Assembly (NCBI GenBank): GCA_023151185.1
Contig: JAKLJL010000001.1
Span: 310,001 to 374,000, forward strand
Length of the DNA stretch: 64,000 nt
Direction of reading: 5' to 3'
From: Bacteroidota bacterium
Lineage (GTDB): Bacteria; Bacteroidota; JABWAT01
Positions within the stretch are counted from its first letter, which is position 1. Each line of letters begins with the position of its first letter. Position numbers and translations under genes: made by a program. This document shows, piece by piece, positions 13,082-21,573 of the stretch. A model generated the notes under the pieces. The model was not told where the DNA came from. It did no database searches and saw nothing but the letters and a program-made list of their open reading frames with translations.

Positions 13082-14083
13082 ATGAAAACGTTCCTATCAA
13101 TTTTAATTCCCGCAGTTCTGCTAACTGGTTGCTACACTCAATTTTCCGGCGTAAACTCTGCATCAAAACGGATGCCGGACCTGACAAAGGTAGAAACCCG
13201 GGTCGATGACAAAACCACAGTGACTGATTATTATGACAACCGGTCATATTCCAGATATATCCGGGATTTCGGATATGGCTTTGGGTACCGGTATTATGAC
13301 CGGTATGGATATGACCCCTATCTTGATTTCGTTTCTACCTACAACACCAACGGATGGGGTTATTCTGGGTATATCGGATTCGACTATGGCTATGGCTGTA
13401 ACTATAATTATGGCTATTACAACCCCTATCAGCCCTATTTTCCTGCATACTCTGATTATTTAACCTACCGGATGGATTTGTGGTATTTATCACGGTTTGG
13501 ACATTATCCTGGGTATAGTTATTACCCTGACTACCGGGATGGATACAATCCGGGCATAGCAAATGAACCCAAAGAATCAGGGACCTGGCGGAGAAGGGAA
13601 TCCAGACGAAATATTCTGACCGAGGTTGGATCAACCTCACTTGCACCAATGCCGATTGAAGTGGCTGCAAATCCACTAGCTGGTGGTGCAGTACAGACTT
13701 CCTTACCGGCCGTCCAGCCGGTTCAAAATGGCAGGGTGACCCGACGGCTTTTGACACCTGAGGGAACCCCGGTTGTTGTTCTTCCATCTTCAACTCCGGC
13801 TACAACATCAATTTTATCAGGAAATAGTGAAAACTCCGGTCGTGTAACACGAAATGTGGTCACACCCGAATCAGGTTCTTCTCAGGCTTCCCCTCCTTCA
13901 ACTGTGCAGGCTAATTCAAATCCTTCAGAGGTTTCTTCCTCCGGCAGGGTTACCAGAAGCGAAAACTCACAACCGGCTGCCAGCCCGGCTCCGGTACATC
14001 AGGAGGCTAAACCTGCAGCACCCGCAGCTCAGCCCGCCCAACCGGCACCTGCTCATCGCAGATCCAGCAGAGGCAGAGGTTAA
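13082..14083 (+). CDS. Tyrosine-rich lipoprotein with GRVTR repeats
   Basis: A 333-residue lipoprotein: the signal peptide ends in a lipobox 'LLTGC', so Cys17 is lipidated. Residues about 45-155 are exceptionally rich in Tyr and Gly ('YGFGYRYYDRYGYDPYLDF', 'YGYGCNYNYGYYNPYQPYF'). The rest is a disordered Ser/Pro/Ala segment carrying three GRVTR motifs near 13729, 13837 and 13943; the first two are followed by a 'TPEG' or 'TPES' element. The end is basic ('HRRSSRGRG'). Low-complexity Tyr-rich chains can be adhesive or bind polymers, but no function can be assigned. A good ribosome-binding site (GGGAGG) precedes the ATG. It lies 46 bases before the FadL-like gene. Confidence 0.75.
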   Translation: MKTFLSILIPAVLLTGCYTQFSGVNSASKRMPDLTKVETRVDDKTTVTDYYDNRSYSRYIRDFGYGFGYRYYDRYGYDPYLDFVSTYNTNGWGYSGYIGFDYGYGCNYNYGYYNPYQPYFPAYSDYLTYRMDLWYLSRFGHYPGYSYYPDYRDGYNPGIANEPKESGTWRRRESRRNILTEVGSTSLAPMPIEVAANPLAGGAVQTSLPAVQPVQNGRVTRRLLTPEGTPVVVLPSSTPATTSILSGNSENSGRVTRNVVTPESGSSQASPPSTVQANSNPSEVSSSGRVTRSENSQPAASPAPVHQEAKPAAPAAQPAQPAPAHRRSSRGRG

Positions 14084-14129: not shown

Positions 14130-15683
14130 ATGAAACGGATTCTTTTTCTGTCCACATCCCTATTATCTGTATTTTCTGTCCAGGCTCAAACTGAACCGGA
14201 TATGATCCGGTATCTGACACCTGTCAGAGGAATTGGTGCACAATCAATGGCAATGGGCTATTCCAATTCACTTATTGCAACTGATAATTCTGCTTTATTC
14301 CTGAACCCGGCCTCCCTTGCAATGGTCAAAAAAACAACACTTTCAGTCAGCTTAAACACAAACCAGGGCTCTGTAGCTTCTGACTGGCTGGGAAATAAAA
14401 ACGAACAGGATTTTTCCAATACCAAGATCAACCAGTTTTCAGTTTCTTACCCCTATCCGGTTTCAAAGGGGAGTTTTGTACTGGCATTTGGGTATGGACA
14501 AACGGAAAACTGGGATCAGACCGTGAAAGGAGGCGGTTACAACACCTCCTCAAGTTTTGTTGAAGGAATATATGGATTCAATCCCTCAGACCGGGTTTCC
14601 CGTAGCGGACTGGAAAATTTTGTTGCCTCGAAAAGGGCCGCTGACCTTATGTTCGACTGGGCGATAAAAAGTAATTTGTTTCAATACCGCCAGGTGGATG
14701 GGCATCCGGACCTTCTCAGGGAAAGATCTATAGTCTTTGGGAACGTCCAGCAGGATTATACAAGTGTTTCTGAAGGGGGCATGAATACCTGGTCGTTTGC
14801 TGCTTCTTCAGAAGTTGCAGAAGGGTTATTTGCAGGAATCTCGGTCCACTTTTTTAACGGTGATTACTACAATAAATATTCTTACAGTGAAAAAGATGTG
14901 AACAGGTACTATTTGTCGGTCCAAGATTCAGGCTTTAATTATATTAATTCAAAAAACGAAAATACCCATGCCAATTTCTCTGCTTTGAATTTCGTCGATA
15001 AACTCGAAGAAAAAATAACCGGCTACAGTGTTAAATTTGGATTGTCCGGCAAATTGACAGATGAATTGTCAGGTGGATTTTCTTACTCGCTGCCAACCTC
15101 TTTAACGGTTGATACAAAAAACTTTGTGGATATGTACATGCAGGCGGTTGATTCATCTGGCGTTCCGCTGATTGATGTCTTTGCAACTGATGAACCCATT
15201 GATTACGCCAGTTCTTACAATCTGGAAGGGGCTTCTGTGATAGAGGCGAATATTGCCTATGCCGGGTTCCCGTTTTCATGTGAAGCTGGGTTAGTGACTG
15301 AAGACTGGACTAATTCCCGGATCACCAGCCCGGATGACAGTGAAAATTATGATGACCTGAATGATTTTTTCAGATTTAACACCAAACGGACATGGGATTT
15401 TAAACTGGGGGTTCAGTATGCTGTTCCAGTCATCCAGTCTTTCGTGAGGGCTGGGATTTATTCTCAGGATTCACCCTATAAAGAAGGTGGAACCCGGGTC
15501 AACCGCCTGAGTGCCGGTTATCAGTTTGTTTCTGAAAGCGGATATACCTTTGATCTGGGGTATAGTTATAATTCATCGTCAGAAACCTATCTGGGATATG
15601 CACCAGCCAATAAACCCAAAGTAACCTATAAAGAAGACCAGAGTTATTCCTCATTTGCAGTTGGGCTTGCCATCAAATTTTAA
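14130..15683 (+). CDS. FadL/OmpP1/TodX-like outer-membrane transport protein
   Basis: A 517-residue outer-membrane barrel. The signal peptide (MKRILFLSTSLLSVFSVQA) is followed by the hallmark opening of this family, 'GAQSMAMGYSNSLIATDNSALFLNPASLAMV', and a long series of amphipathic strands ending in Phe ('AVGLAIKF'). Family members move hydrophobic molecules across the outer membrane. PorV of the type IX machinery has the same fold, so a role in surface protein export is an alternative. The ATG at 14130 is chosen because it starts the signal peptide; an open frame further upstream overlaps the lipoprotein gene in another phase and is not used. Confidence 0.82.
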   Translation: MKRILFLSTSLLSVFSVQAQTEPDMIRYLTPVRGIGAQSMAMGYSNSLIATDNSALFLNPASLAMVKKTTLSVSLNTNQGSVASDWLGNKNEQDFSNTKINQFSVSYPYPVSKGSFVLAFGYGQTENWDQTVKGGGYNTSSSFVEGIYGFNPSDRVSRSGLENFVASKRAADLMFDWAIKSNLFQYRQVDGHPDLLRERSIVFGNVQQDYTSVSEGGMNTWSFAASSEVAEGLFAGISVHFFNGDYYNKYSYSEKDVNRYYLSVQDSGFNYINSKNENTHANFSALNFVDKLEEKITGYSVKFGLSGKLTDELSGGFSYSLPTSLTVDTKNFVDMYMQAVDSSGVPLIDVFATDEPIDYASSYNLEGASVIEANIAYAGFPFSCEAGLVTEDWTNSRITSPDDSENYDDLNDFFRFNTKRTWDFKLGVQYAVPVIQSFVRAGIYSQDSPYKEGGTRVNRLSAGYQFVSESGYTFDLGYSYNSSSETYLGYAPANKPKVTYKEDQSYSSFAVGLAIKF

Positions 15684-15701: not shown

Positions 15702-17858
15702 ATGATCCGAAAAACTTTTTTGCTGGCCAGCGGATTTCTGCTGGCCGGTTTTGTATTTATACTCTGGTTTTTTTCCCGTCTGACATCCGGTGCAGTAACT
15801 GATTGGTCAGGTGAAAAACTCGTTTTCGGATTGACCGGTCAAACTGAAGTATTGAGGGATTCTTCAGGATTTGCAACCATTTCTGCACAAACCTCGCCGG
15901 ATTTTGCCTTTTCACTCGGATATATCCATGCACAGGACCGGTTATGGCAACTGTTTTGGCTGCGTGAAGAAATGCAGGGAAAAACGGCGGCCTATATTGG
16001 GAAATCCGGACTTGGGTGGGATTTGCTTGCCAGAATCCTTGGGTTCGGGCAAAGGGCAGAAAAACTGGTAGATCAGCTTCCTGAATCAGAAAAAATTTAC
16101 CTTCAGGCCTACTGTAAAGGGGTAAATGAGTTTATCCGGCTAAATCCGGATCACCTGCCTCCCGAATTTTCCATACTGAACTGTGATCCCGGTGTTTGGA
16201 AACCTGAGCACTCGGTTGGTATTCTTCTGTTACTGAAATGGCGGTTTTTGGTTCCGCAGGTGAAAACTGAATTGCTGAATATTGTTCTCAGCCAGCCGGG
16301 ATATTCTGCATTCAAAGAAATTCTTCTACCCGGTCTTCCAAACACAGAACGGGTATCGGATGGAATCAACCTGGTTCCGGCCGGCGGAAATTACTCACTC
16401 CCAGATTGGTTGAAGACTGAAAACGGATGGTCTGTGTCACTTTCTGCCTTCGGGAATGGTCTGACCGGAAACAATTCCCCCGTTTTACGGTTAAGCTTTA
16501 AAGACAAAAATCACCTGCCGGCCGGATTTTATCCGGTTTTTCGCAGCGGAACCACTTCCGGCTTGTTTCTTGGATTTCCCGGGACTCCCTGGTTTTTCGC
16601 CGGGATATCAGACAAAGAAGTCTGGTTTCTGGACGGATTCCGGGACACCCTTTCTGCCGGCATCGTGCAGGTTCACAGAAAAGCACTCAGAAACCCGGTC
16701 ACGGTCGAGGTGAAAGATGGATCTCCGGCTGATTTCCTGATCCCGGATATATCATCCGTCATTCTCCTTCCTTCAGAACTTTCCGGGTTTTCAAACGATT
16801 CCGTTCAGTTTTATATCCGGGGAATTGATTTCAATCTTTCCGGCCAGGTTGGCCGTCTTTTAGCTGAATTCCCTGAAACCAAAACCAGTCAGGATTCTGC
16901 CACAGTTAAGATTACCCGTTTCTCCTGCGAAAGTGAGTTTCTGAAGACATGGAGCAATAAAGTAATCTTTGAAAAGGATACTCTGTCAATTCCTGACCTT
17001 GAACAAAGAGCCGGTTCGGTTCAGTCAAATCTAACTCTTTTCAGTTTAATCTATAACTTCCGGAATAACGGAAAATTGTCGGCTGCAGATTTCCATCCGC
17101 TTGAAGAATTGATTTCCGGGTCTGTTTGGCTAAAGGGGAAAAAAGCAGTGATGTCAATTCTTGACGCGGATACAACCCAAACCATCAGAAATAACAGGGT
17201 CTACCTGAAGGCCTGGGAGGGTGAAATATCCGGACAAAGTATCGGGAATTCCGTTTTTTCGGTATTCCGGTATAAGCTGGCTGAAAACTGGCTGGTACCG
17301 GATCTCGGTACCGGATTGTTTGAATTGTGGTATTCCAACAGGGAAACTTCAGATTCAGTTCTTTCCCGGATTTTGCTTGCAGCCGTTAAAAATCCTGATT
17401 ATAACTTACCGGTCACCAGAGTTCCGGTAAAATTACTGATCAGCCATGCATTTGAGGATGCAATCGGGTACCTTCAGGATAATCTGGGAGCCAGCAGTTT
17501 TAACTGGCGGTGGGAAAATGTCAACCAGGTTAGGTTTTTACATCCTTTGGAAACTTCCGGGGTTCAGAACGGGATTGCCGGATTTTATTTTTCTGCCAAA
17601 AGGGACGCTTTTAACTCTTTTAATCATCCAATCCTGTCAGATGTCCGCCAAAAAACAGGCAATACCGAGATTACCGTTTTTACCTGGCTTCCAAATGAAG
17701 AAAATAGACTCAGCTTCGAAACGCCCTCGGGAATTTATGGTATTCCGGGAACAGGATTGGAATCTTATTTCCTTGAAAACTGGAAAAAGTCCAACCCGGT
17801 TCATCTCCTTCCGGCGGTCACCAGTACCGCAGCTTTTAAACTGATACTCCACCCATGA
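15702..17858 (+). CDS. Penicillin-acylase-family protein lacking the nucleophilic serine
   Basis: A 718-residue protein with an N-terminal membrane anchor or signal (residues 5-27) and the fold of penicillin acylases. 'RDSSGFATISAQTSPDFAFSLGYIHAQDRLWQLFWLREEMQGK' is the family's alpha-chain opening. Active members cut themselves before a Ser in 'SNNW' or 'SNMW', and that Ser is the catalytic nucleophile. Here the corresponding stretch is 'TENGW' (239-243), placing Glu240 at the nucleophile position. The following 'PVLRLSFKDKNHLPAGFYPV' and 'GLFLGFPGTPWFFAGI' still align. Self-processing and acylase activity are therefore doubtful, and a binding role is possible. The stop overlaps the next start. 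Confidence 0.72.
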   Translation: MIRKTFLLASGFLLAGFVFILWFFSRLTSGAVTDWSGEKLVFGLTGQTEVLRDSSGFATISAQTSPDFAFSLGYIHAQDRLWQLFWLREEMQGKTAAYIGKSGLGWDLLARILGFGQRAEKLVDQLPESEKIYLQAYCKGVNEFIRLNPDHLPPEFSILNCDPGVWKPEHSVGILLLLKWRFLVPQVKTELLNIVLSQPGYSAFKEILLPGLPNTERVSDGINLVPAGGNYSLPDWLKTENGWSVSLSAFGNGLTGNNSPVLRLSFKDKNHLPAGFYPVFRSGTTSGLFLGFPGTPWFFAGISDKEVWFLDGFRDTLSAGIVQVHRKALRNPVTVEVKDGSPADFLIPDISSVILLPSELSGFSNDSVQFYIRGIDFNLSGQVGRLLAEFPETKTSQDSATVKITRFSCESEFLKTWSNKVIFEKDTLSIPDLEQRAGSVQSNLTLFSLIYNFRNNGKLSAADFHPLEELISGSVWLKGKKAVMSILDADTTQTIRNNRVYLKAWEGEISGQSIGNSVFSVFRYKLAENWLVPDLGTGLFELWYSNRETSDSVLSRILLAAVKNPDYNLPVTRVPVKLLISHAFEDAIGYLQDNLGASSFNWRWENVNQVRFLHPLETSGVQNGIAGFYFSAKRDAFNSFNHPILSDVRQKTGNTEITVFTWLPNEENRLSFETPSGIYGIPGTGLESYFLENWKKSNPVHLLPAVTSTAAFKLILHP

Positions 17859-18697
17859 GTTTGGTTGCAGTTCTTGATATTGGAAAAAGTAAGACATCAG
17901 CCGGTATTTTTACCTCATCAGGGGAATTGATTTTTCAGTCCGGATTTACGGGCAGGGATCTTCTGCTTGAAAAAAGGACTGAACTGAGTGAGTTTTTTTC
18001 CCGGTTTCCGGTTTCTTCCCTGATTGCAGGTGTTGCGGGCATTTCCAGATTAACAGACTCCTGGCGAAACGAGTTCAGGTTGTTTTGTGAAAAAGAAACG
18101 ATCCGGGATGTGGTTCTGGTTTCTGATGCTGATTTTTTTTCTTCTTCGCTGCCCCCGGGTTCTGCAGGAATCAGCATTGGAACTGGTTCAGTAACGGTGT
18201 TAACAGGATTGGATGGTTCAAAAAACCTGCTTGGCGGCTGGGGATATTTATTTGGGGATGAACTGTCGGGATTTTGGTGGTTTGCCCAGTTTTTCAGAAA
18301 ATCGTTGAAATTAGTAGAACAAGATAAACCAGACGATCCGGTTGTTTTGTTTTTTTCCAGGGAATTCAATTGTAAGCCTGACCGCCGGAGTTTTTTGAAG
18401 GCCGGGTATTCCTTGCCGGTTGAAGAGTTGGCGGCTATCGGATCGGCGGCACTTTCCGAATTTGGGTTTTCCTGTTTTCCTGACCCGGATATTAAGAAAG
18501 CAATTTTATCTCTGCTACCGCCTGATTTAACTTTGTATCACGCTTTATACCTGCAGGGCGGGCTGATTTTATCAAATGACAGGCTTAAAGCCGAACTGAT
18601 TTCAGTCGCAAAAAATATAAATCCTGAACTTGCAGTTCGGGAAATTCAATCGCTTTTACCCGGAGGGTTCTCTTGCTGGAAAGAAAAACAGTCCTGA
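17855..18697 (+). CDS. BadF/BcrA-type ATPase, probable N-acetylhexosamine kinase
   Basis: A 280-residue protein of the ASKHA fold, in the family that includes N-acetylglucosamine kinases and the BadF/BcrD ATPases. Phosphate 1 is 'AVLDIGKSKTSAGIF', phosphate 2 is 'ISIGTGSVTVL', followed by 'GGWGYLFGDELSGFW'; the adenosine-side motif is around 'LYLQGGLILSN'. The Cys residues that bind an iron-sulfur cluster in reductase activators are absent, so a sugar kinase is more likely. It is coupled to the gene before it by an ATGA and overlaps the NagZ-like fusion gene after it by 25 bases. It probably phosphorylates amino sugars released in peptidoglycan recycling, which is inference from context. Confidence 0.75.
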   Translation: MSLVAVLDIGKSKTSAGIFTSSGELIFQSGFTGRDLLLEKRTELSEFFSRFPVSSLIAGVAGISRLTDSWRNEFRLFCEKETIRDVVLVSDADFFSSSLPPGSAGISIGTGSVTVLTGLDGSKNLLGGWGYLFGDELSGFWWFAQFFRKSLKLVEQDKPDDPVVLFFSREFNCKPDRRSFLKAGYSLPVEELAAIGSAALSEFGFSCFPDPDIKKAILSLLPPDLTLYHALYLQGGLILSNDRLKAELISVAKNINPELAVREIQSLLPGGFSCWKEKQS

Positions 18698-21573
18698 TTC
18701 TTGCAGTTTTCCTGCTTGCCTCATGTTCAGCTTCAATTCAGCCGGCACCGCAGATTTCCGGAACACCCAATGAATCTGCAGACCAACCGGTTTCCGTTGA
18801 GATTCCGGTTACTCCGGACTCTGATCTGCATTGGGCAGATAGCATGCTCAGCCGGTTGACATTGCGCCAGAAAGTGGCCCAATTGATTTTCCCGAGAACG
18901 GGGGCCTACTATTTTGCGGAAGATTCCAAAAGTTACATGCGGATCAAAAAGCTGATTACGGATGACGAAATCGGTGGCCTGGTGGTTTTTCAGGGAGACG
19001 TCATGGAACAGGCCACCCTGCTGAATGAATGGCAGAAAGAAAGCCGCCTTCCGTTGTGGATCATGCAGGACACTGAAAACGGACTTGCCATGCGGACACG
19101 GAATGCCACGATTTTCCCGCATGTTATGGCACTTGGTGCTATAGACGACACGGCCCTGACCCGAAGGTATGCCCGGGTTGTCGCCCTTGAAAACCGCGCA
19201 GTTGGTATTCATCAGGCCCTTGCTCCGGTTGTCGATGTCAATAACAATCCGGAAAACCCGGTTATAAACGTAAGATCGTTCGGCCAGAATCCCCGTCTGG
19301 TTGCCAGACATGGCCTTGCATATACGATCGGAACTGAACAGGGAGGGCTGCTTCCGACATTGAAACATTTTCCCGGACACGGAGATACTGAAACTGATTC
19401 CCATGCCGAATTACCTGTTCTGAAAGTGACCTCCTCAAGGCTGGACTCACTTGAATTGGTGCCTTACCGGTATATTCTGGCTCAAAGAACACCGGCTGTC
19501 ATGATTGGTCATCTGGCATTGCCTCAGATTACAGGGAACTATACGCCGGCAACTCTTTCCGGTTCTGTTGTAGAAGACCTGCTAAAAGTGCAAATGGGTT
19601 TTAAAGGGCTGGTTGTTACTGATGCAATGGATATGGGTGCCGTTGTAAAAAATTATGGAAATGTAAGGGCAGCAATTGCCGCTCTGAAAGCCGGAAATCA
19701 CTGCCTGATTCTCCCGGTTGGTGAAGAACAGGTCATTGATGGAATAGTGCAGGCTGTGTCAGCCGGTGAACTTGCACCCTCACTGATTGATTCTGCCTGC
19801 ATGAAAATTTTGAAGTTAAAAGAAAAAACAGGGCTGAACCGAAACCGGTTGACTGAAATAGCTGCTGTCCGTAAAACTGTTTCACGGGGTGAACACCTTT
19901 CGCTTGCCGAAGAAGTCGCCAACAGGTCGGTAACCCTGATAAAAAACACCCATAACTGGATTCCATTCAACAAAAATACTCCCAGCCGGATCCTGACAGT
20001 TGTTCTTTCTGAAGGAAAAGACCCGGAAACAGGCGGGGTTTTTGTAAGAGAACTCCGGCGGGAAACCGGTAAAAAAATTGAGTTTTTGCTTTTGGATAAA
20101 CGGTCCAACAGTCTTGATTTCGAAATCGCTGCAAAACGCCTCGATGCCTATCAAAACATACTGATCGTTAGCTTTCTGAATACGTTGAGTTCGGGAGGAA
20201 AAACGACTCTACCTCAGGATTTTACCGGCTGGCTTCAGAAAAATGCGAAAAAACTCGAAGGGAAACGGGTTGCAGGTATTGCTTTTGGTACACCGTATTC
20301 GCTTAATTCGTTCCCTCCTTTTGATGCCCTGATTGCAACTTATTCCGTTTCGGATAATTCCCAAAAGGCAGTTGCCGATGCTCTTGCCGGGCAGATTCCG
20401 TTTTTAGGTAAATTGCCGGTTTCGCTTCTGGAGTTTCCCGCCGGAACCGGGATTGTACCTGTCCGGTTAACCAGGACACCCGATTCGGCAGCCTGCGAAA
20501 TTAAAAATCCAGGGTTTTTCAAACTGGAGAATTTCGCCGAGGAATCCATTCTGGAAGGTGTTGCACCCGGAATGGCAGTGAGTGTTGTTACGGATAAAGG
20601 TGTGATTTATCAAAATACCTTCGGGTTTTTGACCTACGAACCTGGTGCCCCTGCGGTTCAATGTTCAACCCTTTTCGATCTGGCATCCGTTACAAAGGTT
20701 CTTGCAACTACGCTGAGCTGCATGAAACTATATGATCAGGGTAAATTCGATATCCGGGCACCTTTGACCGATTATTACCCTGAAATCACAGATCCGGAGA
20801 AGAAGAAAATTACGCTTTGGCACCTCCTCACCCATACCAGCGGGTTTGAATCCTGGCGGCCGTTTCATTTGCTGGGCGAGCCTGGAAAAAACGAAATATA
20901 TTCGACTATTCTAAATGCAAAACTGGCTTACGCACCAGGAGATTCATCGATTTACAGTGACTGGAATTTTATTCTGCTGGCCGGGATTATTGAAAAAATC
21001 ACAGGGAAACCGCTCGATCAATTTTCGGCAGAGGAAATTTACCAGCCCCTTGGTTTAAAGAACACCCTGTTTAATCCGGTTGGATATGATCCTTCCCGGA
21101 TTGCCCCAACAGAACTGGATACGATTTGGCGGAAGCGGCTTGTCAGGGGAACTGTCCATGATGAAACTGCTCAATTGCTGGGTGGAGTTTCCGGTCATGC
21201 CGGTTTGTTTTCAACAATCAGTGACCTTTCTGTACTAACCGGTATGCTGATCAGGAAAGGGGAATGGCAGGGAATCAGGATTATTTCAGAAGAAACAGTT
21301 CATAAATTTACAGTTTTGGAAAGCCGGAAAGGGCTCAGAGCCCTTGGTTGGGATATCAAATCACCCAAAGGATACACCAGTGCCGGGACCAAATTGGGTC
21401 CAGCTACCTATGGACATCTGGGCTTTACCGGAACCAGTATCTGGATCGACCCTGATCTGAAACTTGGAATTGTGGTTTTGACAAACAGGGTGTACCCGAC
21501 GCGTGCGAATAAAAAAATATCAGCCTTTCGTCCCAAAATTTATGATTTGGCAGCCGAGGCAGCTCTTAAATAG
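18673..21573 (+). CDS. Lipoprotein fusion of GH3 beta-N-acetylglucosaminidase and class C beta-lactamase-like domain
   Basis: A 966-residue two-enzyme lipoprotein. The TTG start at 18673 is preceded by GGAGG at 18662 and gives a signal peptide with lipobox 'LLASC'. The GH3 part is NagZ-like: 'KHFPGHGDTETDSH' holds the Asp242/His244 dyad and 'VVTDAMDMG' the nucleophile Asp317. A GH3 C-terminal domain follows. Residues about 600-966 are a serine hydrolase of the class C beta-lactamase/PBP4 type, with Ser672-Val-Thr-Lys675, a Tyr-Ser-Asp motif ('YSDWN') and a late 'HLGFTGTS' in place of KTG. Such fusions are known in Bacteroidota. Both parts probably act on peptidoglycan fragments outside the cytoplasm. 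Confidence 0.9.
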   Translation: MLERKTVLILAVFLLASCSASIQPAPQISGTPNESADQPVSVEIPVTPDSDLHWADSMLSRLTLRQKVAQLIFPRTGAYYFAEDSKSYMRIKKLITDDEIGGLVVFQGDVMEQATLLNEWQKESRLPLWIMQDTENGLAMRTRNATIFPHVMALGAIDDTALTRRYARVVALENRAVGIHQALAPVVDVNNNPENPVINVRSFGQNPRLVARHGLAYTIGTEQGGLLPTLKHFPGHGDTETDSHAELPVLKVTSSRLDSLELVPYRYILAQRTPAVMIGHLALPQITGNYTPATLSGSVVEDLLKVQMGFKGLVVTDAMDMGAVVKNYGNVRAAIAALKAGNHCLILPVGEEQVIDGIVQAVSAGELAPSLIDSACMKILKLKEKTGLNRNRLTEIAAVRKTVSRGEHLSLAEEVANRSVTLIKNTHNWIPFNKNTPSRILTVVLSEGKDPETGGVFVRELRRETGKKIEFLLLDKRSNSLDFEIAAKRLDAYQNILIVSFLNTLSSGGKTTLPQDFTGWLQKNAKKLEGKRVAGIAFGTPYSLNSFPPFDALIATYSVSDNSQKAVADALAGQIPFLGKLPVSLLEFPAGTGIVPVRLTRTPDSAACEIKNPGFFKLENFAEESILEGVAPGMAVSVVTDKGVIYQNTFGFLTYEPGAPAVQCSTLFDLASVTKVLATTLSCMKLYDQGKFDIRAPLTDYYPEITDPEKKKITLWHLLTHTSGFESWRPFHLLGEPGKNEIYSTILNAKLAYAPGDSSIYSDWNFILLAGIIEKITGKPLDQFSAEEIYQPLGLKNTLFNPVGYDPSRIAPTELDTIWRKRLVRGTVHDETAQLLGGVSGHAGLFSTISDLSVLTGMLIRKGEWQGIRIISEETVHKFTVLESRKGLRALGWDIKSPKGYTSAGTKLGPATYGHLGFTGTSIWIDPDLKLGIVVLTNRVYPTRANKKISAFRPKIYDLAAEAALK

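Follow-up and report, generated by a model that had tools for sequence, protein, structure and literature searches.

The penicillin amidase family (PF01804), which includes penicillin G acylase, cephalosporin acylase, PvdQ and D-succinylase, is built on a common fold in which residue 1 of the β-chain is the nucleophile. In the account given for PvdQ, the oxyanion hole is composed of Val-β70, Asn-β269 and His-β23 (PMC5474475). Of these, Val-β70 contributes by its backbone. A second point of reference is RmNag3 from Rhodothermus marinus, in which a GH3 NagZ domain is joined to a C-terminal β-lactamase-family domain; this enzyme is reported to be an active GlcNAcase with activity on acetyl-chitooligosaccharides, and the authors argue for a periplasmic location and a link to peptidoglycan turnover (PMC6987092). 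The likeness of RmNag3 to the locus described here concerns a neighbouring fusion of the same architecture, not the acylase-like protein, and the main text of that paper nowhere uses the term acylase (PMC6987092). A literature search by title and the start of the abstract, with subscription journals outside its coverage, showed nothing among the entries listed on altered acylases of the kind discussed below, and no wider absence is claimed.

The window analysed here is a 64,000-nucleotide stretch of a Bacteroidota genome. It contains an intact ORF of 718 amino acids with the penicillin-amidase fold over its full length, and the features of this gene and its neighbours are as follows.

14130..15683, + strand, outer-membrane protein (OMP) with weak PorV/FadL similarity below curated cut-offs, ending 18 bases upstream of the acylase-like gene
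15702..17858, + strand, penicillin-amidase-fold protein lacking the Ntn nucleophile (PF01804, AF2, VIA-align)
15717..15773, + strand, N-terminal hydrophobic helix, residues 6-24 (hydropathy 2.4 over 19 residues from residue 6; model helix 2-31)
15831..16301, + strand, conserved α-chain block, residues 44-200 (4hsr_A match)
16419..16430, + strand, E240-N-G-W243, sequence-aligned to Ser1-Asn-x-Trp4 (profile-profile alignment; Glu in all three genus genomes)
16434..16436, + strand, Val245, structurally paired with β-chain residue 1 (4hst_B and 1jx9_B rows)
16491..16502, + strand, L264-S-F-K267 where Asn20-Asp-Pro-His23 is expected (gap-free reading from P260)
16641..17027, + strand, degenerate middle of the β-chain, residues 314-442, the expected region of the oxyanion Asn (alignment, AF2)
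17855..18697, + strand, BadF/NagK-type sugar kinase, its first 4 bases shared with the acylase-like gene
18673..21573, + strand, NagZ-type GH3 fused to a PBP4B/β-lactamase-family domain, with a lipoprotein-like signal (family matches)

Membership of the family is evident from both profile and fold across the whole length of the window protein. Its match to PF01804 (E 5.8e-48) scores 164.8 bits, where the cut-off is 21.3, and the α-chain 4hsr_A is the best match to the N-terminal part (residues 30-177; E 1.7e-18), which bears out the initial annotation of a penicillin-acylase-like protein that keeps the N-terminal block of the family. The AF2 model (pLDDT 76.4, pTM 0.83), built from an alignment of 57 sequences, namely the window protein and proteins from the collected loci, has its best PDB Z score by VIA-align with cephalosporin acylase 3s8r_B (Z 27.6; 503 residues; rmsd 3.8), and the best Foldseek match is D-succinylase 7eby_C (TM 0.60 by query length). 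The N-terminal hydrophobic helix, shared with the family like the fold and the α-chain block, is likely a membrane anchor, and the remainder of the protein would then be periplasmic. The protein differs from the family in its length of 718 residues, against a median of 817.5 in 70 intact members.

At the nucleophile site as placed by sequence, the window protein reads K238-T-E-N-G-W243. In a profile-profile alignment of four orthologs with ten acylases, each of which retains Ser, Asn, Trp, Asp and His, E240 falls on Ser1, N241 on Asn2 and W243 on Trp4 (Prob 100, E 3.3e-53). The claim that TENGW stands where self-cleaving members have SNNW is supported by the letters and by the profile alignment, but the structural model puts Val245, not Glu, at this place. 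The same substitution was sought in relatives and is present in all three genomes of the genus, the other two (G001 and G002) reading DENGW and SENGW; with intact ORFs throughout, the Glu is not the slip of a single assembly, and an assembly or frameshift error as its source was ruled out on these grounds. The AF2 model begins the hairpin with a β-strand at residues 244-250, and both β-chains numbered from 1 among the matches listed (4hst_B and 1jx9_B) pair residue 1 with V245, the match lists giving just the first and last aligned residue of each pair. Counting back without gaps from T11, P16, P29 and Y33, which are conserved (T255, P260, P273 and Y277), also leads to 245, and the sequence register requires a 5-residue insertion between Trp4 and T11. 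The model of the more distant G003 ortholog (L037; pLDDT 75.3, pTM 0.84) pairs chain residue 1 with Trp244 in 31 of 50 rows among the matches listed, in agreement with the gap-free count from T11 and P16. By sequence, the nucleophile residue in G001, G002 and G003 reads E, E and S, and by structure F, F (same column) and W.

The structural models of the site have 57 sequences behind them and middling confidence there, and with Glu given by the sequence alignment and Val by the model, it is uncertain whether Glu physically occupies the site. The original observation appears right in substance and uncertain in letter: in neither register (E240 by profile, V245 by structure) does the β-chain of the window protein begin with Ser, Thr or Cys, though Glu is perhaps not the residue that replaced Ser. 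With no nucleophile in the predicted sites, neither self-cleavage nor acylase activity would be expected, as the initial annotation had anticipated. It had also named the finding that would count against it, a structural alignment with another Ser, Thr or Cys at the active site; the predicted structures place Val245 (window) and Trp244 (G003) there.

A model error of a single residue would matter in one respect, since all three members of the genus carry Ser244, Ser246 and Ser248 around Val245. These residues speak for a functional Ntn hydrolase whose nucleophile has moved (to Ser244, Ser246 or Thr239) and that cleaves itself a few residues off the usual place, a reading nevertheless improbable, for the G003 ortholog has no Ser, Thr or Cys at its structural site or at either adjoining residue (K243, W244, V245), and the His and Asn positions are kept in none of the four orthologs. 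Thr239, proposed earlier as a shifted nucleophile, is Asp in G001 and Ser in G002, and this lack of conservation leaves no conserved shifted nucleophile at that position. Use of Glu240 for some other chemistry, such as that of a general acid/base, is very improbable: Glu followed by N-G-W is found in all three genus genomes, but an equivalent of Glu240 is absent from the G003 ortholog, and the model places Glu240 outside the pocket position.

The losses extend to other catalytic positions, which goes beyond the initial annotation. Read without gaps from P260, the NDPH positions of the four orthologs are LSFK, IEQL, INQI and IAWY, such that K267 stands in the place of the His in the window protein. 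Loss of this His alone is not decisive, because penicillin G acylase itself carries Gln at position 23 in the alignment. The Asn oxyanion column is occupied by other residues in all four orthologs, but this stretch aligns poorly, and the ortholog alignment of this poorly aligning region yielded no recognizable Asn oxyanion motif in the window protein; within residues 314-442 of the AF2 model, 95 of 129 residues fall in segments with pLDDT < 50. The window protein thus has neither the oxyanion His nor a recognizable oxyanion Asn, and stands apart from the penicillin amidase family in lacking these together with the nucleophile.

The order OMP, acylase-like gene, kinase and NagZ-PBP4B is kept in four of four genomes of the class and forms part of a longer order common to all four (dxs, oxidoreductase, two OMP-region genes, OMP, acylase-like gene, kinase, NagZ-PBP4B, ffh), the class and the order sample being the same four genomes (the window genome, G001, G002 and G003). 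A profile search of genome contigs with the ortholog alignment returned two loci, both already in this set. Apart from this locus, each of the four genomes also encodes an acylase whose signature is intact (L031, L032, L033 and L034).

The acylase-like gene is fast-evolving yet constrained. Its product is 42% identical between species where dxs, the oxidoreductase, the gene labelled 12249 and ffh stand at 86-90%, and this fast evolution is what might suggest a decaying pseudogene. That alternative can be given very little weight, as the ORFs are intact, their order is conserved in four genomes, and dN/dS between G001 and G002 (66.5% identity) is 0.125, comparable to the kinase (0.20) and OMP (0.18), with NagZ-PBP4B at 0.062 and dxs at 0.035, all rough values at a dS of about 2. 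Together, this constraint and the presence of Glu in all three genus genomes argue for a pseudoenzyme rather than a decaying gene. Elsewhere in the window, positions 13082-14083 encode a fast-evolving, Tyr-rich protein with 36-38% identity within the genus, the genes on its upstream side being at least 86% identical.

The cluster with a NagZ/β-lactamase-type fusion and a sugar kinase, as first described, is real and is supported by family matches, shared motifs and gene order. The kinase matches PF01869 below cut-off in both the window copy (E 0.26) and the G001 ortholog (E 1.1e-5); the window kinase is strongly diverged, yet it keeps the D-x-G-x-S-K-T, GTGS and GGWG..GDE of clear PF01869 members, which we take to be its catalytic motifs. 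The listed TTG start of the NagZ-PBP4B gene, itself putative, overlaps the kinase gene by 25 bases, and the PBP4B-type domain of this fusion may act in the manner of AmiE (cf. PMC5061867). Away from the locus, the window genome yields a single match each to NamZ_N (E 8.8e-63) and AnmK (E 2.5e-93), and the presence of these relatives in the same genome fits a setting of amino-sugar recycling. Promoter-like sites show no excess (12 vs 13.4 in shuffles), and terminator-like sites are in excess (28 vs 13.3 in shuffles).

Acylase matches were found in 296 of 392 genomes in a search of the phylum, and among the best matches listed only the four of the window class span the length of the ortholog profile. 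A sample taken from the surroundings of NagZ-PBP4B fusions, of short acylases and of the best intact acylases among the matches listed gave 127 candidates, or 106 distinct acylase-family proteins once repeats were removed; ORFs of < 550 amino acids, those running off either edge of the locus and those with < 1000 bases downstream had been excluded before the count. Intact was taken to mean S-N at the site together with a His and an Asn in the NDPH and Asn columns, respectively, and all other proteins were termed altered, which divides the 106 into 70 intact and 36 altered. A kinase gene, counted if on the same strand with a start within -200 to +1000 bases downstream, directly follows 22 of the 36 altered acylases and 2 of the 70 intact ones. 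By family, the figures are 10 of 14 altered and 1 of 25 intact (Fisher p 1.5e-5, families not being independent units). The sample is non-random, having been drawn with acylase queries of which several were kinase-linked; among altered families outside the queries, a kinase is found in six of nine. With the limit relaxed to 1500 bases on either side, L122 and the proteins of f40 and f43 also have one. The window protein, with its altered signature and BadF/NagK-type kinase directly downstream, is therefore one of a wider altered group, many members of which lie beside a kinase gene, a second point not made in the initial annotation. In four loci (L091:9559-11265, L092:9435-11159, L093:6272-7999 and L094:6952-8628), the gene directly upstream of an altered acylase of families f10 and f3 presumably encodes a PolX-type DNA polymerase.

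The trio of acylase, kinase and NagZ-PBP4B recurs in three families, two of them altered (f1 and f14, four proteins each) and one intact (f12, two proteins). The f12 acylases (L073 and L155) share the neighbourhood and its order with the window protein, with the kinase between acylase and NagZ-PBP4B, and the f16 acylases (L075 and L076) likewise lie beside NagZ-PBP4B. Unlike the window protein, both families retain S-N-A-W, D-P-H and the Asn motif A-N.

Inspection by eye of the 36 altered acylases gave, by sequence, Ser at or near the site in 25, Gly in 5, Glu in 3, and Ala, Asn and an ambiguous residue in one each. A view of the whole altered group as Ser-less, taken from automatic columns, was dropped, as the alignment had hidden the Ser in most members. 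Among the Ser holders, the Ser lies three residues before the Trp in most, and in f14 is placed by the pattern R-S-[IV], four residues before the Trp in L074. It is missing from all three f10 proteins, two of four in f35, the single f43 and f27 proteins and the three members of the window genus. On the tree, E, G, A or N takes the place of the nucleophile on separate branches, with at least five changes; the nucleophile is thus not strictly kept in the altered group, which suggests that parts of the group can do without catalysis. Asn is present at the oxyanion column in 11 of the 36; given this and the Ser in 25, a large share of the altered proteins may still be active enzymes. Accounting for the group as mostly a divergent catalytic subfamily (S-x-A-W ... 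R-H-V), in which only some lineages, that of the window included, are inactive, is a serious possibility, if one held at somewhat under an even chance; an R-H-V in many aligned rows agrees with it, but the Ser is gone from the lineages named above, and in f3 the His is missing from four of five proteins, which read RYVY. It is compatible with a pseudoenzyme reading of the window protein itself. One altered acylase of G058 (L024:1435-3921) reads A-S-G-N-A-W, with Gly at the usual Ser place, Ser one residue earlier and SAT in the Asn columns, and on this sequence is a candidate for a truly shifted nucleophile.

The phylogeny of these changes is less clear than their number. In a first tree of the α-block, a single f14 protein grouped with the window class (83/86) on a long branch. 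A larger tree separates the window class, the f14 group and a large altered group (100/100), with three changes in the free tree, and places f14 beside the intact own-family paralogs (97/89) on long branches. Topology tests gave p-AU values of 0.34 for all altered proteins together, 0.40 for these with the f12/f16/f50 acylases, and 0.54 for the window class with f14. None of these groupings is rejected, and neither tree decides for a single origin of the altered proteins. Gene order suggests that the window gene descended from an intact acylase of the same locus, a descent that the tree does not resolve.

With a probability of roughly 0.68, the window protein is best regarded as a constrained pseudoenzyme, an acylase homolog without catalytic function that is anchored in the membrane and serves the salvage of peptidoglycan sugars. 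It would be an uncleaved, single-chain periplasmic protein in which neither the nucleophile nor any other recognizable catalytic position survives, its gene-order counterpart being the intact-looking acylase beside kinase and NagZ-PBP4B (f12) or beside NagZ-PBP4B (f16). The remaining groove or surface may bind a product of peptidoglycan turnover or a partner, whose identity is a guess, the NagZ-PBP4B lipoprotein being the obvious candidate for a partner, and this binding could help a step that supplies amino sugars to the cytoplasmic kinase. Acylated sugars and homoserine lactones, the ligands put forward in the initial annotation, are putative. The more general proposal, that acylases beside NagZ and an amino-sugar kinase repeatedly became non-catalytic, uncleaved periplasmic receptors or scaffolds for muropeptides or amino sugars, still needed by the salvage pathway, in several lineages of the phylum, is speculative and less likely than not. 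These observations advise caution in naming such genes penicillin acylases. The neighbour-sharing series from intact acylases (f12 and f16), through altered proteins with Ser, to altered proteins without it offers a direct route to the non-catalytic role of the fold, and ties the non-catalytic acylase fold to the salvage of peptidoglycan sugars.
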